Under the pieces are notes generated by a model. The model made no database searches. It saw only the letters and a program-made list of their open reading frames with translations, and had not been told where the DNA came from. A stretch of 64,000 nucleotides of DNA from Crocodylus rhombifer (Eukaryota; Chordata; Crocodylia; Crocodylidae), in NCBI GenBank assembly GCA_038503035.1, contig JAVSML010000983.1, positions 1 to 64,000 of the forward strand, read 5' to 3'. Below, piece after piece: positions 1 to 60,916 of this stretch. A program made the position numbers and the translations under genes. How positions within the stretch are numbered: the stretch's first letter is position 1; every line of letters starts with the position of its first letter.

Positions 1-1831
1 TCACCTGGTCATAGAAGGAAATGAGATTGGTCAAACAAGACCTACCCGCAACAAACCCATGCTGGCTGTCCCTTAGAATGTTAGCCTGGGCCAGTCCCTC
101 AAGGATGGCCTCCTTAATAAACTTTTCTAAGATCTTCCCCAGGATAGAAGTCAGGCTAATGGGCCTGTAGTTAGCCGGATCCACTCTCCTCCCTTTCTTG
201 AAGATCGGCACCACATTGGCCTTCTTCCAGTCTTCAGGCACTACACCAGAGTGCCAGGAGTTTTCAAAGATCCGTGCCAGGGGCTGGGCTATGACGCTCG
301 CCAGCTCCTTGAGTACCCTGGGGTGCAGATTGTCAGGGCCAGCTGACTTGAAGGTATCCAGCTTCTCAAGGTGTTCCTTCACGAGGTAAGCATTGATGGA
401 GGGTAGGGGATCCCCCTCACCCAGATTTCCCTGTCCCATAGCAGGCATGGGCATCCCGTGTGACTGATGAAAGACTGACACAAAGTACCTATTTAATAGG
501 TTGGCTTTTTCCTGGGTGTCAGTTGTCAGTTGACCCATCTGGTTTAGCAGGGGTCCAACATTCCCCTTGCTTTTCCTCCAGCTCCCCACATATCTGAAAA
601 AGGACTTTTTGTTGTCCTTGATGCCTGAAGCTAGTTGGAGTTCAGTTGCAGCCTTGGCTTTCCTGGTTTGGTCCCTGCAGGACCGGACCAGTGCGGAGTA
701 ATCCTCCTTGGAGGTGAATCCCATCCTCCATCCTTTGTAGGCTTTCCTTTTTAGCCACAGTAGGTCCGCTAGGTCTCTGGAGAGCCAGGGGGGCTGCTGT
801 GCCTTCTTGCTGCCTTTCCTCCGTGTTGGAATAGATTTAGATTGTGCACTGAGGATCGCTTCTTTGAGAAGCAACCACTCTTCTTGAACTCCCCTCTCCC
901 TGGGGTCATGGTCCCTGAGGGCCTGACCGACTAGCCTCTTGAGCTTATCAAAGTCGGCTTTTCTGAAGTCAAGGACTTTTGTGTTGCTGACTGACTTGCC
1001 AGCTTTACGGCGGATGGTGAAGGTGATCAGCTCGTGGTCGCTGTCACCCAACTTCCCATCAATCACTAGGTCGCCAATTAGGTCGTCCCCCGTAGCCAGT
1101 ACCAGATCAAGCAGCGCTTTGCCTCTCGTTGGCCCATAGACTTCTTGAGTCAGGTAGAGGTCATCCACGCATGAGAGAAAGCTTTGCGCCCGCTCAGATT
1201 TAGCTGAGTGATCTTCCCATGAGATGTCCGGGTAATTGAAGTCACCCATGACAACCAAGGTCCTGGAGCAAGTGGCCTCAGTCAGTTCCCGGGCGAACGC
1301 CTGGTCAAGCTCGGGACTTTGAGTGGGAGGTCTGTAGGAGACTCCCACCGTTGTGTCCCCTGTGCCGAATTCCCCACGAATTTTTACCAAGAAGGTCTCT
1401 AGCTGTCCATGCCGGTCGCCAACATCAGCTTGCAGGGACATGTAGCTTTCCTTCACATAGAGAGCTACACCCCCGCCCCTTTTGTCAACACGATCCCTCC
1501 TGTATAGGGTATAGCCCTCTAAACCCATGGTCCAGTCATGGGTGGAGTCCCACCAGGTCTCCGTTATCCCAATGACATCATATTTCTTTGCACTGAGCAG
1601 GAGGACGAGCTCGTCCTGCTTGTTGCCCAGGCTCCTGGCATTAGTGTACAGGCAGGCAAGTGTGCCCTTGGGGACTCTTGCCTTGCCCACAGATTGTGCC
1701 AGGGCTGGGGCAGAGGTGGTCTCCCTTAAGTGCCTTGGTCCGCTGGCTTTGCAAGGGCCGTTCAGCGGGCCAGCAGGGGCAGTAGTCCCCCCATCCCCCA
1801 GCGGGCTTAGTTTAAAGCCTGGTGGAGCAGG
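1..1831 (-). CDS. CR1 ORF2 (endonuclease plus start of reverse transcriptase), partial, open to the window edge
   Basis: I read this frame codon by codon from 1831 to 1 and found no stop, about 610 codons, and it continues past the window. It encodes an apurinic-type endonuclease: ITETWWDS near the start, then GDFN and GDSDHEL, which carry the metal-binding and catalytic Asp/His signature of the APE-like fold. A basic linker follows, and then the RT fingers with the PIFKKGRR and NYRPISL blocks. The catalytic YLDFKKAFD and FADD blocks lie outside the window. The first in-frame ATG (1528-1526) falls after the TETWW motif, so an ATG start would lose part of the endonuclease. The frame begins after a TGA at 1834-1832 and overlaps the end of ORF1 by 25 nt in the -1 frame. 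The product acts in target-primed reverse transcription in the nucleus. Confidence 0.9.
1804..1816 (-). promoter_or_regulatory. Candidate -1 ribosomal frameshift site joining ORF1 to ORF2
   Basis: On the minus strand the ORF1 codons end GCT TTA AAC TAA. The heptamer T TTA AAC is in register as X XXY YYZ, a canonical eukaryotic -1 slippery sequence, and the ORF1 stop codon follows at once. A one-base backward slip enters the ORF2 frame (CTA AGC CCG), which is then open to the window edge. About seven nucleotides downstream, GCTGGGG can pair with CCCCTGC across a G-rich loop, a plausible stimulatory hairpin. Sequence and frames are seen directly; use of the site is inferred. Confidence 0.6.
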
Positions 1832-2828
1832 TCAGCCAGCCTGGCTGAGACAAGCCTCCTCCCCGGGGGAGAGAGGTGGAGGCCATCTCTTCCCAGCAGC
1901 TCGCTGCCTCTCTCGCCAAAGAGCGGGCTGTGGTCATGGAAGCCAAAGCCTTCCCGATGACACCAGTGCCGCAGTCTTTGGTTCACTGCGTGGATCCTCC
2001 TCTCCCTCCTCAGCCCATAGCCCAAGACTGGGAGGATCGAGGAAAACACCACCTGAGCTCCCAGACCCCTAAGCCCCGCTCCCAACTCCCTGTAGTGCCT
2101 CATGACCTGGCTGGGGGTGCTCCGAGCCGTGTCATTGGTGCCCACGTGAATAAGGAGCATGGGGTAGTGGTCTGTAGGCCGGAGGAGCTGTGGGATCCTC
2201 TCCGCAATGTCTCGGATGCGGGCCCCCGGGAAGCAGCAGACTTCCCGGGCTAAGGGGTCGGGGCGCAGATTGCCCCCTCAGTGCCCCGCAGGATGGAGTC
2301 TCCCACAACAAACACCTTACGCTTTGTCTTGGGGAGAGTGGGGCCAGTAGCTGCGGTGAAGCCTGGGTTGCCTTCGGGAGCTGGCAACTGCATGGGCTCT
2401 GCTGGGGCTGCAAGAGGTGCGAACCTGTTGCTAAGCTCCGGTGGGGCAGGGGCCTTGGTGCAGCGGGCCTTTAGGCCCTTGACCACCTTGGTCCATGCCC
2501 CTGACTGGGCAGAGCAGGAGGTCCCTGAGTCCTCCTTAGTCACGGAGGGAGACAGAGCTCTCCCCTGCGGCTCCCGGGGGAGAAGGGCCTGGCAGTAGGA
2601 GTCTATCTCCTGCTCGCAGTCCCTGATGGCACGCAGTCTCTGAACTGTGGCTTGGAGCTCCTCCAGCTGGCGCGCCAGAGACCCCAGTAGGGAGCAGACC
2701 CCACAAGGGGAGGTGGCCATGCTCCCAGGCCCCAGAGCCTAAAAAAGGGACAGGCAGCCCCCGCAGCCAAGAGCCAGGGGCTCCATCTGCGTGGAGCCCG
2801 GAACCATGGGCTCCGTCTGGGTGGCCAT
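1807..2828 (-). pseudogene. CR1 ORF1 with coiled-coil start and SGNH esterase domain; one nonsense codon and one frameshift
   Basis: This is the RNA-binding/accessory protein of copy A, about 340 residues if undamaged. I place the start at the ATG at 2828-2826 (MATQTEP, G at -3 and G at +4). An in-frame TAG lies at 2741-2739 and a second possible ATG at 2720. The N-terminal part has CxxC pairs (CGGC, CGVC) and a leucine-rich heptad stretch (SLARQLEELQATVQRL) that looks like a coiled coil. The C-terminal half is an SGNH/GDSL-type esterase with GDS (Ser codon 2297-2295), GTND (about 2142-2131) and DGLH (about 1887-1876), so all catalytic positions remain. A one-base loss near 2261-2267 shifts the frame between GDS and GTND. 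An esterase domain in ORF1 is an established feature of CR1-clade LINEs. The two lesions mean this copy could not make the protein itself. Confidence 0.88.
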
Positions 2829-3054: not shown

Positions 3055-3265
3055 CTCCCTGGGGGGCTGGGCCAAGTAGGGGCCTGGGCGGGGGCTTGAC
3101 CCGGCCCGGCACCAGGCAGTGGCCTCCTCCCAGGGAGCAAGGAGTTAACCCCTTCCCACCACGAGCCCGCTCACCTCCGGCTGTGCTGGGGGTGTCTAGG
3201 GGGCTTCGGGGGAGTGGGGGTGCAGCGGGCTTCACCCGCACGTCTCTCACCGCTCCAGAGCCTAC
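3055..3265 (-). repeat. 5'UTR unit, ORF1-proximal copy
   Basis: First of two near-identical GC-rich units in the CR1-A leader. The partner is at 3446-3680, with only scattered substitutions apart from one roughly 30-base indel. Confidence 0.8.
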
Positions 3266-3445
3266 CTGAGTGTGTTTTTTTTTTTTCTCCCCCTGTTTCG
3301 CGGGCCCTTTTAAACTATGCGCATGCACAGTGGGCCTGCCGTCGGGGAACGCTGGCTTCTCAGGCCAGGGGGGCCCTGCCCGGGATTTGGGGGTCCCTGC
3401 CCTACAGGAGGGGGACTGGTGAGTACCCCCTACTTCACTTCTCTC

Positions 3446-3680
3446 TCCCTGGGGGGCTGGGCCAAGTAGGGGCCTGGGCGGAGGCTTGACCCGGCCCGGC
3501 ACCAGGCAGCGGCCTCCTCCCAGCAAGCGAGGAGTTAACCCCTTCCCACCACGAGCCCGCTCACCTCCGGCTGTGCTGGGGGTCAGCAGGGGGCTCGGCA
3601 GATGCTGAGGGGGTGTCTAGGGGGCTTCGGGGGAGTGGGGGCGCAGTGGGCTTCACCCGCGCGTCTCTCACCGCTCCAGA
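3446..3680 (-). repeat. 5'UTR unit, distal copy, abutting CR1 copy B
   Basis: Second copy of the leader unit. It ends at GAGCGG (about 3680), after which the sequence is the 3'UTR of CR1 copy B starting TCATAGGATCCC. Confidence 0.8.
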
Positions 3681-3739
3681 GCGGTCATAGGATCCCAGCC
3701 AGATAAGCATCCAATTTACTCTGGAAGGTGTTCAATGTA

Positions 3740-6080
3740 GGTGCTTGAACCACCTCCGCTGGCAGACTGTTCCAGACCTTGGGGGCTCAGACAGTAAAGA
3801 AATTCTTCCTTATGTCCAGCCTGAAACGGTCTTGCAGGAGTTTGTGACCGTTCGACCTAGTCATCCCTTGGGGCGCTCTGGTGAACAGATGTTCCCCCAG
3901 ATCCTGGTGGTCACCCCTGATAAACTTATAGGTGGCCATCAGATCACCCCTGAGCCTATGCTTTTCCAGGCTAAAGAGTCCCATGTCTCTCAGCCTGTCA
4001 TCGTAAGATCTGTTTTTCTGACCTCTGATCATGCGCGTGGCTCTTCTCTGGACTCTCTCAAGCTTCTCCACATCCTTTTTGAATTGTGGAGCCCAAAACT
4101 GGACGCAGTACTCCAGCCGCGGCCTCACCAACGCCGAGTACAAGGGGAGAATGACGTCCCGGGATTTGCTCGAGAAGCATCTATGGATGCACGCCAGCAT
4201 TTTGGTCGCTTTACTAGCCGCAGCATTGCATTGCAGGCTCATGTTCATCTTCTGGTCAATGATGACCCCCAAGTCTCTTTCTTCTGTAGTGCTAGCCAGC
4301 GGAGCACTGCCGAGCCTATAAGGATGCTGCAGGTTTTTCCTCCCAAGGTGGAGAACCTTGCATTTTTCGGTGTTAAAACCATGAGGTTCTCGTCTGCCCA
4401 TTTGCTGAGCTTGTCCAGGTCAGCCTGGATCACCCGCCTATCTTCTGGCGTGGATGCTTTGCCCCAAAGTTTGGTGTCATCGGCGAACTTGGCCAGTCCA
4501 CTCCTGAGTCCAATGTCCACATCGTTAATGAAAATGTTGAACAGTATGGGTCCAAGGACAGAGCCTTGAGGGACCTCACCGGTCACAGGGCACCACGATG
4601 AGTGACTGCCATCAACTACAACCCTCTGGGTCCGACCACGAAGCCAATTTCCCAGCCAGCGGATCGTGGTGGAGCCAAGGCCACAACTGGGCAGTTTGGC
4701 CAAGAGGTGATCATGGGATACCAAATCAAAAGCTTTTTTGAAGTCAAGATATATGACATCAATCTCTTCTCCCTTGTCCAGGTGATAGGTTACCTGGTTG
4801 TAGAAGGAAATGAGATTGGTCAAACAAGACCTACCCGCAACAAACCCGTGCTGGCTATCCCTTAGGATGTTAGCCTGGGCCAGTCCCTCAAGGATGGCCT
4901 CCTTAATAAACTTTTCTAAGATCTTCCCCAGGATAGAAGTCAGGCTGATGGGCCTGTTGTTAGCCAGATCCACTCTCCTCCCTTTCTTGAAGATCGGTAC
5001 CACATTGGCCTTCTTCCAGTCTTCAGGCACTACACCAGAGTGCCAGGAATTTTCAAAGATCTGTGGTGGAGTTTTCAAAGATCGTGCCAGGAGTTTTCAA
5101 AGGGGCTGGGCTATGACGCTTGCCAGCTCCTTGAGTACCCTGGGGTGCAGATTGTCAGGGCCAGCTGACTTGAAGGTATCCAGCTTCTCAAGATGTTCCT
5201 TCATGAGGTCAGCATTTATGGAGGGTAGGGGATCCCCATCACCCGGATCTCCCTGTCCCACAGCAGGCATGGGCATCCCATGGGACTGATAAAAGACTGA
5301 CACAAAGTACCTATTTAATAGGTTGGCTTTTTCCTGGGCGTCAGTTGCCAGTTGACCCATCTGGTTTAGCAGGGGTCCAACGTTGCCCTTGCTTTTCTTC
5401 CATCTCCCCACATATCTGAAAAAGGTGTTTTTTGTTGTCCTTGATGCCTGAAGCTAGTTGGAGTTCAGTTGCAGCCTTGGCTTTCCTGGTTTGGTCCCTG
5501 CAGGACCAGACCAGCGCGGAGTAATCCTCCTTGGAGATTAATCCCATCCTCCATCCTTTGTAGGCTTTCCTTTTTAGTTGCAGGAGGTCCGCTAGGTCCC
5601 TGGAGAGCCAGGAGGGCTGCTGTGCCTTCTTGCTGGCTTTCCTCCATGTTGGAATAGATTTAGCGTGTGCATTGAGGATCGCTTCCTTGAGAAGCAACCA
5701 CTCTTCTTGAACTCCCCTCTCCCTGGGGTCATGGTCCCTAAGGGCCTGACCGACAAGCCTCTTGAGCTTGTCAAAGTCAGCTTTTCTGAAGTCAAGGACT
5801 TCTGTGTTGCTGACTGACTTGCCAGCTTTACGGCAGATGGTGAAGGTGATCAGCTCATGGTCGCTGTCACCCAGCTTTCCATCGATCACTAGGTCGCCGA
5901 TTAGGTCGTCCGCCTAGCCAGTACCAGGTCGAGCAGCGCTTTGCCTCTCGTTGGCCCATAGACTTCTTGAGTCAGGTAGAGGTCATCCACGCACGAGAGA
6001 AAGCTTTGCGACCGCTCGGATTTTGATGAGTGATCTTCCCACGAGATGTCCGGGTAATTGAAGTCACCCATGACAACCAA
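3740..6080 (-). pseudogene. Broken CR1 ORF2 (endonuclease end plus RT) of copy B
   Basis: The frame is broken into pieces (about 5889-5341, 5411-5097, 5078-4245 and 4401-3787). Lesions visible against copies A and E are a two-base loss near 5908-5915, an extra base in the T run near 5427-5435, a local duplication of about 45 bp at 5049-5105 where GTTTTCAAAG recurs three times, and a one-base loss near 4375. The RT blocks survive: YLDFKKAFDLVSH, PQGSVLGP and FADDTKLWG (catalytic Asp pair), followed by the CR1 C-terminal region with RRATRMIRGQ and RLRGDLMATYKFI. It cannot encode a full protein. Confidence 0.9.
5049..5105. repeat. Local short duplication inside copy B ORF2
   Basis: The block (A/G)TTTTCAAAG(A) occurs three times within 57 bp. 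Copies A and E have it once, so this is a private duplication of copy B. It disrupts the ORF2 frame. Confidence 0.75.
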
Positions 6081-6082
6081 GT

Positions 6083-57660: not shown

Positions 57661-58372
57661 TCAAGCCCCATTCAGAAAGTTGTGACTGCAGACTAGCTTT
57701 CTTGGCGTGTATAGGACAGGTGTACTGCAGAGAGCTTGTCTGCTCCTCTCAAAGGCTCTCACCATGGATTCTGACCAATTTAACAGCTGGGGTTTCCTCT
57801 TCATCATGTCTGTCAGTAGGACCACAATTTCTGAAAAATGTCGACTAAACCTTCTATAGTAATTTGCAAACCCTAAGAATGACCTAAGTTGTTTTAAAGT
57901 CATGGGTAACCTGTAGGTTTTTATGGCTTCCACTTTATCAGCTAAGGGACACTGGCCTATCTGAAAACCTAGATATTTGGTCTCGTTCTGCCCCCAGATA
58001 CATTTCTTAAGGTTTGCCGTCATCCCTGCCTTCCTTAGTTCCTGCAAGACTGCCTGTAAATGTTGACAATGTTTCTCCCAGGTTTGTGAAAATATTATAA
58101 TGTTGTCAATGTATGCAGAAGCATAATTTTGATGAGTGGCCAACGTCTTTATTCATTAAGCATTGGAACAAGGTGGCCACCCTATGTAGGCCAAACAGCA
58201 TACATCTAAACTGAAATACACCCCAAGGTGTCCCGAAAGCCGTCTTTGCTTTATCCCGCTCATTCATGGGTATTTGCCAGTAACCCTTTGTTAAGTTCAG
58301 GATTGATATATATCTGGCCTGCCTGATCTTTTCCAACATCTCTTCTATCTGGGCATGGGGAAGGCATCAAAG
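57661..58372 (-). pseudogene. Reverse transcriptase of the gypsy-class element, main part
   Basis: On the minus strand it has EEMLEKIRQARYISIL, GYWQIPM, the FQFRCMLFGL block, then YIDNIIIFS and LRSFLGFANYYRRFS. The catalytic motif of active elements is Y-x-D-D; here the second Asp codon has become AAC (58104-58102), so the enzyme would be dead. Frames change near 58140 and 58340. The N-terminal remainder lies beyond the CR1 insertion at 61016-61300; the two halves join exactly at codon level across the insertion. Confidence 0.88.
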
Positions 58373-60916
58373 TCCCTGCAAGCTGATGCTGGCGACCAGC
58401 ATGGACAGCTAGAGACCCTCTGGGTAAAAATTCGTGGGGAATTCGGCACAGGGGACACAACGGTGGGAGTCTACTACAGACCTCCCACTTAAAGTCCCGG
58501 GCTTGACCTGGAGTTCGCCCGGGAACTGACTGAGGCCGCTTGCTCCAGGACCTTGGTTGTCATGGGTGACTTCAATTACCCGGACAGCTCGTGGGAAGAT
58601 CACTCAGCTAAATCTGAGCGGGCGCAAAGCTTTCTCTCGTGCGTGGATGACCTCTACCTGACCCAAGAAGTCTATGGGCCAACGAGAGGCAAAGCGCTGC
58701 TTGACCTGGTGCTGGCTACGGGAGACGACCTAATCGGCGACCTACTGATTGATGGGAAGTTGGGTGACAGCGACCACGAGCTGATCACCTTCACCATCCA
58801 CCGTAAAGCTGGCAAGTCAGTCAGCAACACAGAAGTCCTTGACTTCAGAAAAGCCGACTTTGACAAGCTCAAGAGGCTAGTCGGTCAGGCCCTCAGGGAC
58901 CATGACCCCAGGGAGATGGGAGTTCAAGAAGAGTGGTTGCTTCTCAAGGAAGCGATCCTCATTGCACAAGCTAAATCTATTCCAACACGGAGGAAAGGCA
59001 GCAAGAAGGCACAGCAGCCCCCCTGGCTCTCCAGAGACCTAGCGGACCTACTGTGGCTAAAAAGGAAAGCCTACAAAGGATGGAGGACGGGATTCACCTC
59101 CAAGGAGGATTACTCCGCGCTGGTCCGGTCCTGCAGGGAGCAAACCAGGAAAGCCAAGGCTGCAACTGAACTCCAACTAGCTTCAGGCATCAAGGACAAC
59201 AAAAAGTCCTTTTTCAGGTATGTGGGGAGCCGGAGGAAAAGCAAGGGCAATGTTGGACCCCTGCTAAACCAGATAGGGCAACTGACAACTGACACCCAGG
59301 AAAAAGCCAACCTATTAAATAAGTACTTTGCGTCAGTCTTTCATCAGTCACATGGGATGCCCATGCCTGCTATGGGACAGGGAAATCTGGGTGAGGGGAA
59401 TCCCCTACCCTCCATCAATGCTGACCTCGTGAAGGAACACCTTGAGAAGCTGGATACCTTCAAGTCAGCTGGCCCTGACAGCCTGCACCCCAGGGTACTC
59501 AAGGAGCTGGTGAGTGTCATAGCCCAGCCCCTGGCACGGATCTTTGAAAACTCCTGGCGCTCTGGTGTAGTGCCCGAAGACTGGAAGAAGGCCAATGTGG
59601 TGCCGATCTTCAAGAAAGAGAGGAGAGTGGATCCGGCTAACTACAGGCCCATTAGCCTGACTTCTATCCTGGGGAAGATCTTAGAAAAGTTTATTAAGGA
59701 GGCCATCCTCAAGGGACTGGCCCAGGCTAACATTCTAAGGGACAGCCAGCACGGGTTTGTTGTGGGTAGGTCTTGTTTGACCAATCTCATTTCCTTCTAT
59801 GACCAGGTGACCTATCACCTGGACAAGGGAGAAGAGATTGATGTCATATATCTTGACTTCAAAAAAGCTTTTGATCTGGTATCCCATGATCACCTCTTGG
59901 CCAAACTGCCCAGTTGTGGCCTTGGCTCCACCACAATCCGCTGGCTGGGAAATTGGCTTCATGGTCGGACCCAGAGGGTTGTGATTGATGGCAGTCACTC
60001 ATCATGGTACCCTGTGACCAGTGGGGTCCCTCAAGGCTCTGTCCTGGGACCCATACTGTTCAACATCTTCATTAATGATGTGGACATTGGAGTTAGGAGT
60101 GGACTGGCCAAGTTCGCCGATGACACCAAACTTTGGGGCAAAGCATCCACGCCAGAAGATAGGCGGGTGATCCAAGCTGACCTGGACAAGCTCAGCAAAT
60201 GGGCAGATGAGAACCTCATGGTGTTTAACACCGAAAAATGCAAGGTTCTCCACCTTGGGAGGAAAAACCTGCAGCACCCTTATAGGCTCGGCAGTGCTAC
60301 GTTGGTTAGCACTACAGAAGAAAAAGACTTGGGGGTCATCATTGACCACAAGATGAACATGAGCCTGCAATGCGATGCTGCAGCTAGTAAAGCGACCAAA
60401 ATGCTGGCGTGCATCCATAGATGCTTCTCGAGCAAATCCCGGGACGTCATTCTCCCCTTGTACTCGGCCTTGGTGAGGCCGCAGCTGGAGTACTGCGTCC
60501 AGTTTTGGGCTCCACAATTCAAAAAGGATGTGGAGAAGCTTGAGAGAGTCCAGAGGAGAGCCACGCGCATGATCAGAGGTCAGGGAAACAGATCTTACGA
60601 TGACAGGCTGAGAGCCATGGGACTCTTTAGCCTGGAAAAGCGCAGGCTCAGGGGTGATCTGATGGCCACCTACAAGTTTATCAGGGGTGACCACCAGGAT
60701 CTGGTGGAATGTCTGTTCACCAGAACGCCCCAAGGGATGACGAGGTCGAACGGTCACAAACTCCTGCAAGACCGCTTCAGGCTGGACGTAAGGAAGAATT
60801 TCTTTACTGTCCGAGCCCCCAAGGTCTGGAACAGTCTGCCAGCGGAGGTGGTTCAAGCACCTACATTGAACACCTTCAAGAGTAAATTGGATGCTTATCT
60901 TGCTGGGACCCTATGA
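58373..60916 (+). pseudogene. CR1 ORF2 of copy E, nearly complete RT with one nonsense codon
   Basis: The frame is open from 58373 to the TGA at 60914-60916 except for one TAA at 58490-58492 (CAA in copy A). The uninterrupted ATG-led part at 58553-60916 is 787 codons. Residue positions in that part: endonuclease GDFNYPD 5-11 and SDHEL about 72; basic linker 130-230; RT from about 345 with PIFKKERR and NYRPISL; catalytic YLDFKKAFD about 430; PQGSVLGP about 490; FADD about 521. The CR1 C-terminal region has RRATRMIRGQ and TYKFIRGDHQD. All RT catalytic residues are intact. The 5' endonuclease is truncated, so the copy cannot transpose by itself. The open frame reflects recent insertion rather than host use. 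Confidence 0.92.

Follow-up and report, generated by a model that had tools for sequence, protein, structure and literature searches.

How a CR1 long interspersed nuclear element (LINE) makes its reverse transcriptase is the question raised by the DNA analysed here, a stretch of 64,000 nucleotides (nt) from Crocodylus rhombifer (contig JAVSML010000983.1, positions 1 to 64,000; the window). A CR1 LINE on the minus strand lies in the first kilobases of the window, and its second open reading frame (ORF2) has no ATG ahead of the endonuclease that it encodes. A virus-type ribosome-slipping signal located just before the end of ORF1 suggests that CR1 obtains its copying enzyme through a fusion of its two gene products. 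Few LINE families have been studied for how the second ORF gets translated, and those named in the available text of reviews, SART1 and L1, both use reinitiation (PMC2881922, PMC5972666).

The ORF1-ORF2 junction of the window copy

The last ORF1 codons of the window copy read GCT TTA AAC and are followed at once by the stop TAA (1809..1807; all coordinates of the element are on the minus strand). They include the slippery heptamer TTTAAAC (1816..1810), in register with ORF1 as T TTA AAC. A stop directly after the heptamer is reportedly also found in a bovine retrovirus. ORF2 lies in the −1 phase relative to ORF1; its frame is bounded upstream by a TGA (1832..1834), overlaps ORF1 by 25 nt, stop included, and extends over 2..1831, where the window edge ends it after 610 codons. 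On the heptamer, the adjacent stop, the phase and the overlap, the initial annotation, which had also counted U UUA AAC among the most efficient slippery heptamers, was correct. The accessible part of PMC5009743 places U_UUA_AAC in the group of heptamers at which mammalian ribosomes shift most readily. An in-register heptamer of the form X XXY YYZ, with an overlapping downstream ORF in −1, was found both in the window and in the copies sampled from the same genome. Judged by codon use in the element (GCT for 18 of 56 Ala, TTA for 6 of 93 Leu, AAC for 11 of 22 Asn), the chance of GCT TTA AAC given Ala-Leu-Asn is about 0.010 (18/56 x 6/93 x 11/22), with the −1 phase of ORF2 not yet counted.

By the domains tested, the window element is an esterase-type CR1 LINE. 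The C-terminal part of ORF1 (1807..2277), which ends in ...HQALN*, carries an SGNH/GDSL esterase domain (PF13472, E 5.9e-13, 50.1 bits against a cut-off of 32.9). The ORF2 frame reads PAPPG FKL SPLGDGG... through to CLYTNARSLGNK and encodes the endonuclease, with PF03372 and PF14529 both above cut-off, and probably the start of the reverse transcriptase, for which PF00078 scores 24.8 bits against a cut-off of 29.6 (E 2e-5) in an ORF2 cut by the window. Between the heptamer and the endonuclease motif CLYTNARS lies a linker, FKLSPLGDGG...GTLA (1655..1816), that is open and has no ATG. The first ATG of the frame (1526..1528) lies within the endonuclease, beyond the TETWW motif and 96 codons past the first base of the heptamer; the majority sequences of two related groups of copies (A and B, below) have Thr at this position. 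The upstream part of ORF1 (2250..2738) is in a different frame from the C-terminal part. Because ORF1 is split in this way, near 2250-2277, the window insertion itself is probably dead, and the argument therefore rests on the family rather than on this insertion.

The junction in other copies of the same genome

In the 2.2-Gb genome there are 1088 exact matches to the 16-mer CAGGCTTTAAACTAAG and 0 to its reversed control. Forty-eight of these places were fetched; they were chosen on the heptamer and hence are no test of its conservation. Copies strongly diverged from the window family (L003, L007, L008, L015) are among them, with the heptamer present, and the −1 frame is open from the heptamer to the endonuclease motif in 21 of the 48, two of these having a Met in between; the 21 include members of a family that differs greatly from the window element. 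A heptamer-independent sample was obtained by searching the genome with residues 1-276 of the ORF2 frame, a query that contains FKL. This search listed 140 of 60,927 first-look candidates; all 140 align from residue 1 or 2 and, being the best matches, represent one young group. The ORF2 frame spans 982 codons in 21 of these 140 listed relatives. When 20 copies spread down the list were inspected, TTTAAAC TAA, ALN* and PAPPGFKL were found in every one, and one extra ORF2 copy start, examined for a separate reason, agrees with the 20. Twenty unselected 10-kb stretches of one contig contained one ORF2 fragment and zero junctions.

The residues directly upstream of the heptamer in the ORF2 frame vary among copies and relatives (PAPPG, PPPVG, PPPAG, HRQS). 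TAAG follows the heptamer in the window and the 20 sampled copies, and a UAAUG-type AUG overlapping or adjoining the ORF1 stop is not present in them. Nor do these copies show an arrangement for stop codon readthrough, ORF2 being in −1 and not in the ORF1 frame in the window and 20 of 20 sampled copies. The heptamer is kept beyond coding need, outside this genome as judged from proteins only. Three listed ORF2 frames of 1970-2129 amino acids resembled natural fusions; the one checked (L089, C13437 19400-24600) proved to be a run of N read as open.

A copy of another CR1 family, which adjoins the fetched copy in L003 (180-590, minus strand) and was not fetched via its own heptamer, shows a TTTAAAC TAG junction of its own as well as a Met in the linker. 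Its junction reads GGGC TTTAAAC TAGG, closing an ORF1 that ends in LLRWALN*, and its −1 frame reads FKLGSSGEGEDEG, which includes FKLGSSGEGED; the endonuclease would lie beyond the piece. The end of this −1 frame matches residues 1-29 of the ORF2 protein P0135 (62%, E 1.2e-4), and P0135 continues into CLYTNARS.

The junction in other species

Searches of viral, prokaryote, plasmid and phage collections gave no relative at DNA level, and for birds, turtles, lizards and frogs the assessment therefore rests on proteins. Two protein searches, the second contributing the best 120 of 353 matches, listed 133 ORF1 relatives from turtles, birds, alligator, lizards, a snake and frogs; the alligator protein (P0072) is 89% identical to the window ORF1 over 149 residues. 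LN forms the C-terminal end in 106 of the 133 (94 ALN, 6 TLN, 2 SLN, 2 ELN, 1 CLN and 1 VLN) and is internal to a longer C-terminus in 6 more, as though the stop had been lost. The other 21 do not show LN, many of them being, by eye, truncated or joined to other exons. The seed alignment behind the second search ends in LN in all its sequences. One ORF1 relative, P0050, is filed as Klebsiella pneumoniae (2.9-kb contig); it is related to vertebrate CR1 ORF1, at 64% to a turtle one, and is probably host contamination.

For ORF2, the best 120 of 131 relatives were listed, most of which start at a downstream ATG. FKL is found 35-99 residues ahead of the endonuclease motif in 18 of these 120, from seven genera (Mycteria 11, Limosa 2, and Theristicus, Anas, Grus, Podarcis and Gopherus 1 each), and is preceded in 17 of the 18 by Gly or Ser, as expected from GGC or AGC. 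By enumeration, Leu-Asn-stop combined with Phe-Lys-Leu in the −1 frame is solved only by TTTAAAC or TTTAAAT plus a stop. Since LN* ends most of the ORF1 relatives and FKL stands in the −1 frame, the proteins, two sets linked by clade and not by single element, strongly point to TTTAAA(C/T) at the junction in birds and a lizard. The initial annotation had asked whether heptamer, −1 phase and missing ATG are conserved in crocodilian, turtle and bird CR1. The heptamer and the phase recur in the same-genome copies and, to the extent that LN and FKL report them, in the listed proteins, whereas the missing ATG does not recur so widely. In one turtle gene model (P0237, Gopherus evgoodei) the sequence passes from ORF1 straight into the linker of ORF2 (...LAQLIR-VFKL...); this looks like either a fusion of the two ORFs in the genome or an exon join made by the model.

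The linker as a possible coding sequence

Majority sequences were built for four groups of copies related to the window, A (4 copies), B (7), C (24) and D (7). In none of them is there a stop or a Met between the heptamer and TETWW; the first Met of the majority is residue 129 in A and 125 in B, and C and D have none ahead of their first stops (137 and 109). These quick majorities break elsewhere: in B on the ORF1 side, in C and D at more distal points of ORF2. Group E (3 copies) is interrupted soon after ORF2 begins, although L007 itself is open for 306 codons. The linker is 174 nt long in B, C and D, and the 12 additional nt of A amount to four whole codons. Codon position 3 accounts for 5 of 6 linker differences between B and C, 17 of 34 between B and D and 13 of 29 between C and D. 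Such small numbers lean mildly toward a linker that is translated. Directly after the heptamer, the ORF2 frame of the window family, of birds and of a lizard (P0134, P0160, P0182 and others) has FKLxxxG(E/D)G, the conservation of which could reflect a protein or an RNA constraint.

Proposed frameshifting and its rivals

Because the heptamer and the −1 phase are widely conserved and the linker is open and coding-like, the ORF2 protein is likely to arise by programmed −1 frameshifting at U UUA AAC, and we consider it quite probable that CR1 makes an ORF1-ORF2 fusion in this manner. Ribosomes would translate ORF1 as far as U UUA AAC, where the majority would stop at the next codon and release the ORF1 protein. 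A minority would slip one base back, UUA AAC becoming UUU AAA, enter the ORF2 frame and pass through the short linker into the endonuclease and reverse transcriptase. ORF1 and ORF2 would thereby be joined in one product, made at a ratio that is low and fixed, as for retroviral Gag-Pol. What we infer here is slippage itself, its rate, its stimulator, and the fusion as the working enzyme. Judged on sequence, frameshifting is likely to be more general than the window alone showed. On balance, with rather less assurance, we favour the wider proposal that programmed −1 frameshifting at U UUA AAC, as an ancestral trait, serves esterase-type CR1 of tetrapods generally (crocodilians, birds, turtles, lizards, snakes and frogs) as the route to reverse transcriptase, yielding a Gag-Pol-like fusion, unlike the reinitiation of L1 and SART1, and kept for some 300 million years.

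Several observations weigh against frameshifting. Evidence outside this genome is of protein only, and the two ORF1 relatives of the 133 listed that end in ELN are incompatible with U UUA AAC. Most linker differences between the wider pairs of majority sequences are nonsynonymous (21 of 29 for C-D, 22 of 34 for B-D). As to the stem or pseudoknot that the initial annotation had suggested looking for, the downstream RNA is not clearly more stable than shuffled sequence in the window (z +1.28), and 13 copies folded at three lengths show no excess stability (z −1.9 to +1.6, the lowest being L007). The particular hairpin that had been put forward, GCTGGGG with CCCCTGC, was rejected. It has a U-U mismatch in the window (6 of 7 pairs) and pairs at 5 or 6 of its 7 positions in 21 young copies (the window and the 20 sampled), and in older copies its mean of 4.4 pairs is no better than the 4.7 of a control slid by one base; this comparison used 27 of the 48 16-mer copies, 21 being left out as out of register. 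No conserved stimulator was found downstream of the heptamer in the copies compared. A possible long-range stem would pair CCGCTGG (1798..1804), 5 nt past the heptamer, with CCAGCGG (1740..1746). Its mean is 5.5 of 7 pairs in 25 older copies as against at most 3.4 when slid; the CCAGCGG arm would also enter a competing local hairpin with 1769-1776 (7.4 of 8 pairs), and L003, L007, L008 and L015 have different letters at the position of the CCGCTGG stem.

The remaining points against concern start codons. In ORF2 gene models of turtles, lizards, waterfowl and other birds, an ATG precedes the endonuclease motif by about 10-60 codons (among those listed, marine turtle, Podarcis, duck, goose and stork models), and the match between the second family of L003 and P0135 begins at a Met in both, indicating a linker ATG in that family. 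The absence of an ATG until past TETWW, which the initial annotation had noted for this element, is family-specific: it holds in the window's subfamilies, as the window copy and the majorities of A-D show, and not generally. An L1-type AUG in ORF2 before the endonuclease was thus not found in the window or these majorities and is present in other CR1 families.

The pre-endonuclease ATGs of the turtle, lizard and bird models make reinitiation possible in those families, alongside or instead of frameshifting, and the alignment of the L003 linker Met with the start of P0135 slightly lowers the odds of frameshifting and raises those of reinitiation. Taken as the general explanation, termination and reinitiation as in L1 or SART1, with scanning to an ORF2 ATG and the heptamer merely a conserved ORF1 C-terminus, has precedent (the available text of PMC2881922 and PMC5972666 describes it for those two elements) and would account for these ATGs; we nevertheless think it unlikely. 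In A and B the first Met of the majority lies past TETWW and in C and D none precedes the first stop, at least 10 of the 120 listed ORF2 models (alligator, Anolis, duck, stork and turtles) start only after the TNAR motif, and there is no UAAUG at the ORF1 stop. Moreover, the linker upstream of any ATG is still open, and FKLxxxG(E/D)G is kept in birds and a lizard. Initiation at a non-AUG codon or at an internal ribosome entry site, close to where the ORF2 frame begins, would suit the window groups that lack an ATG before the endonuclease and a frame that is open from just upstream of the heptamer, but it gives no reason for the recurrence of the heptamer letters and the −1 phase across diverged families whose ORF2-frame residues just upstream differ, and we regard it as very improbable.

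Even less credence is given to splicing of ORF1 to ORF2. By eye, GTAAG-like and TTTTCTTACAG-like motifs lie near the junction in L003, L007 and L008, but they were not seen in the window family; splicing would not conserve the heptamer, and a spliced RNA would presumably not rebuild the junction in new insertions. Least probable of all, in our estimate, is chance or protein-level conservation of Ala-Leu-Asn alone. An LN C-terminus could serve the esterase, but the codon-use figure given above, from one family in which TTA is rare, stands against it, and the same DNA letters occur in a second family whose copy was retrieved without reference to them and, as deduced from the two protein frames, in birds and a lizard.

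Other CR1 sequences in the window

A GC-rich block upstream of ORF1 is present as two direct copies, 84% alike (3055-3261 and 3445-3682), which may be promoter units repeated at the 5' end of the CR1 element. The window also holds two more pieces of ORF2 from this CR1 family, with identities of 92% and 97%, at 4792-6081 (minus strand) and 58372-59810 (plus strand); both lack the junction.

Comparison with known systems

According to the available text of PMC4316615, CR1 exceeds every other element family in abundance in birds, crocodilians, turtles and snakes. If CR1 frameshifts as predicted, enzyme-dose control in the style of gag-pol would exist in LINEs too; biochemistry and retrotransposition assays would gain a definition of the actual ORF2 protein, which would carry the ORF1 esterase; and the many CR1 ORF2 gene models that have no plausible start would be explained. 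A full-text literature search, covering the portions of papers open to it, returned no report of frameshifting in CR1, although CR1 papers of 1993, 1997, 2001 or 2003 may contain an earlier remark. A study of intact avian CR1 counts an element as intact when a single ORF holds both endonuclease and reverse transcriptase; ORF2, frameshift and start codon are terms absent from its accessible portion (PMC8665684). CR1 subgroup 7, with ORF1 of type IVB, to which the window element belongs by the domains tested, has an esterase ORF1 and an ORF2 of endonuclease and reverse transcriptase, and the term frameshift is likewise not in the part of that paper available (PMC4120745).

According to the accessible text of PMC5009743, pol is in −1 in 28 of 51 animal long terminal repeat (LTR) retrotransposons surveyed, with heptanucleotide shift sites; they share both features with the CR1 case, but are LTR elements and not LINEs. 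The same text describes frameshifting for HeT-A Gag, which like CR1 belongs to a non-LTR element; HeT-A differs in that the frameshift is needed for Gag itself and in having no reverse transcriptase of its own (PMC5009743). In SART1 and L1, as in the reading proposed for CR1, a bicistronic LINE RNA must have its first ORF translated for the second to be translated, and SART1 and L1 both restart on an AUG (PMC2881922, PMC5972666, available text). Unlike them, the window's CR1 subfamilies have no AUG before the endonuclease, and their frames overlap at a slippery site. Also close are the viral U_UUA_AAC −1 sites. The CR1 case differs from these in sitting in a LINE and in that no conserved stimulatory structure was found, and it shares with them, as described in the accessible part of PMC5009743, the same heptamer, register, −1 phase and overlap, and a gag/pol-like order of products.

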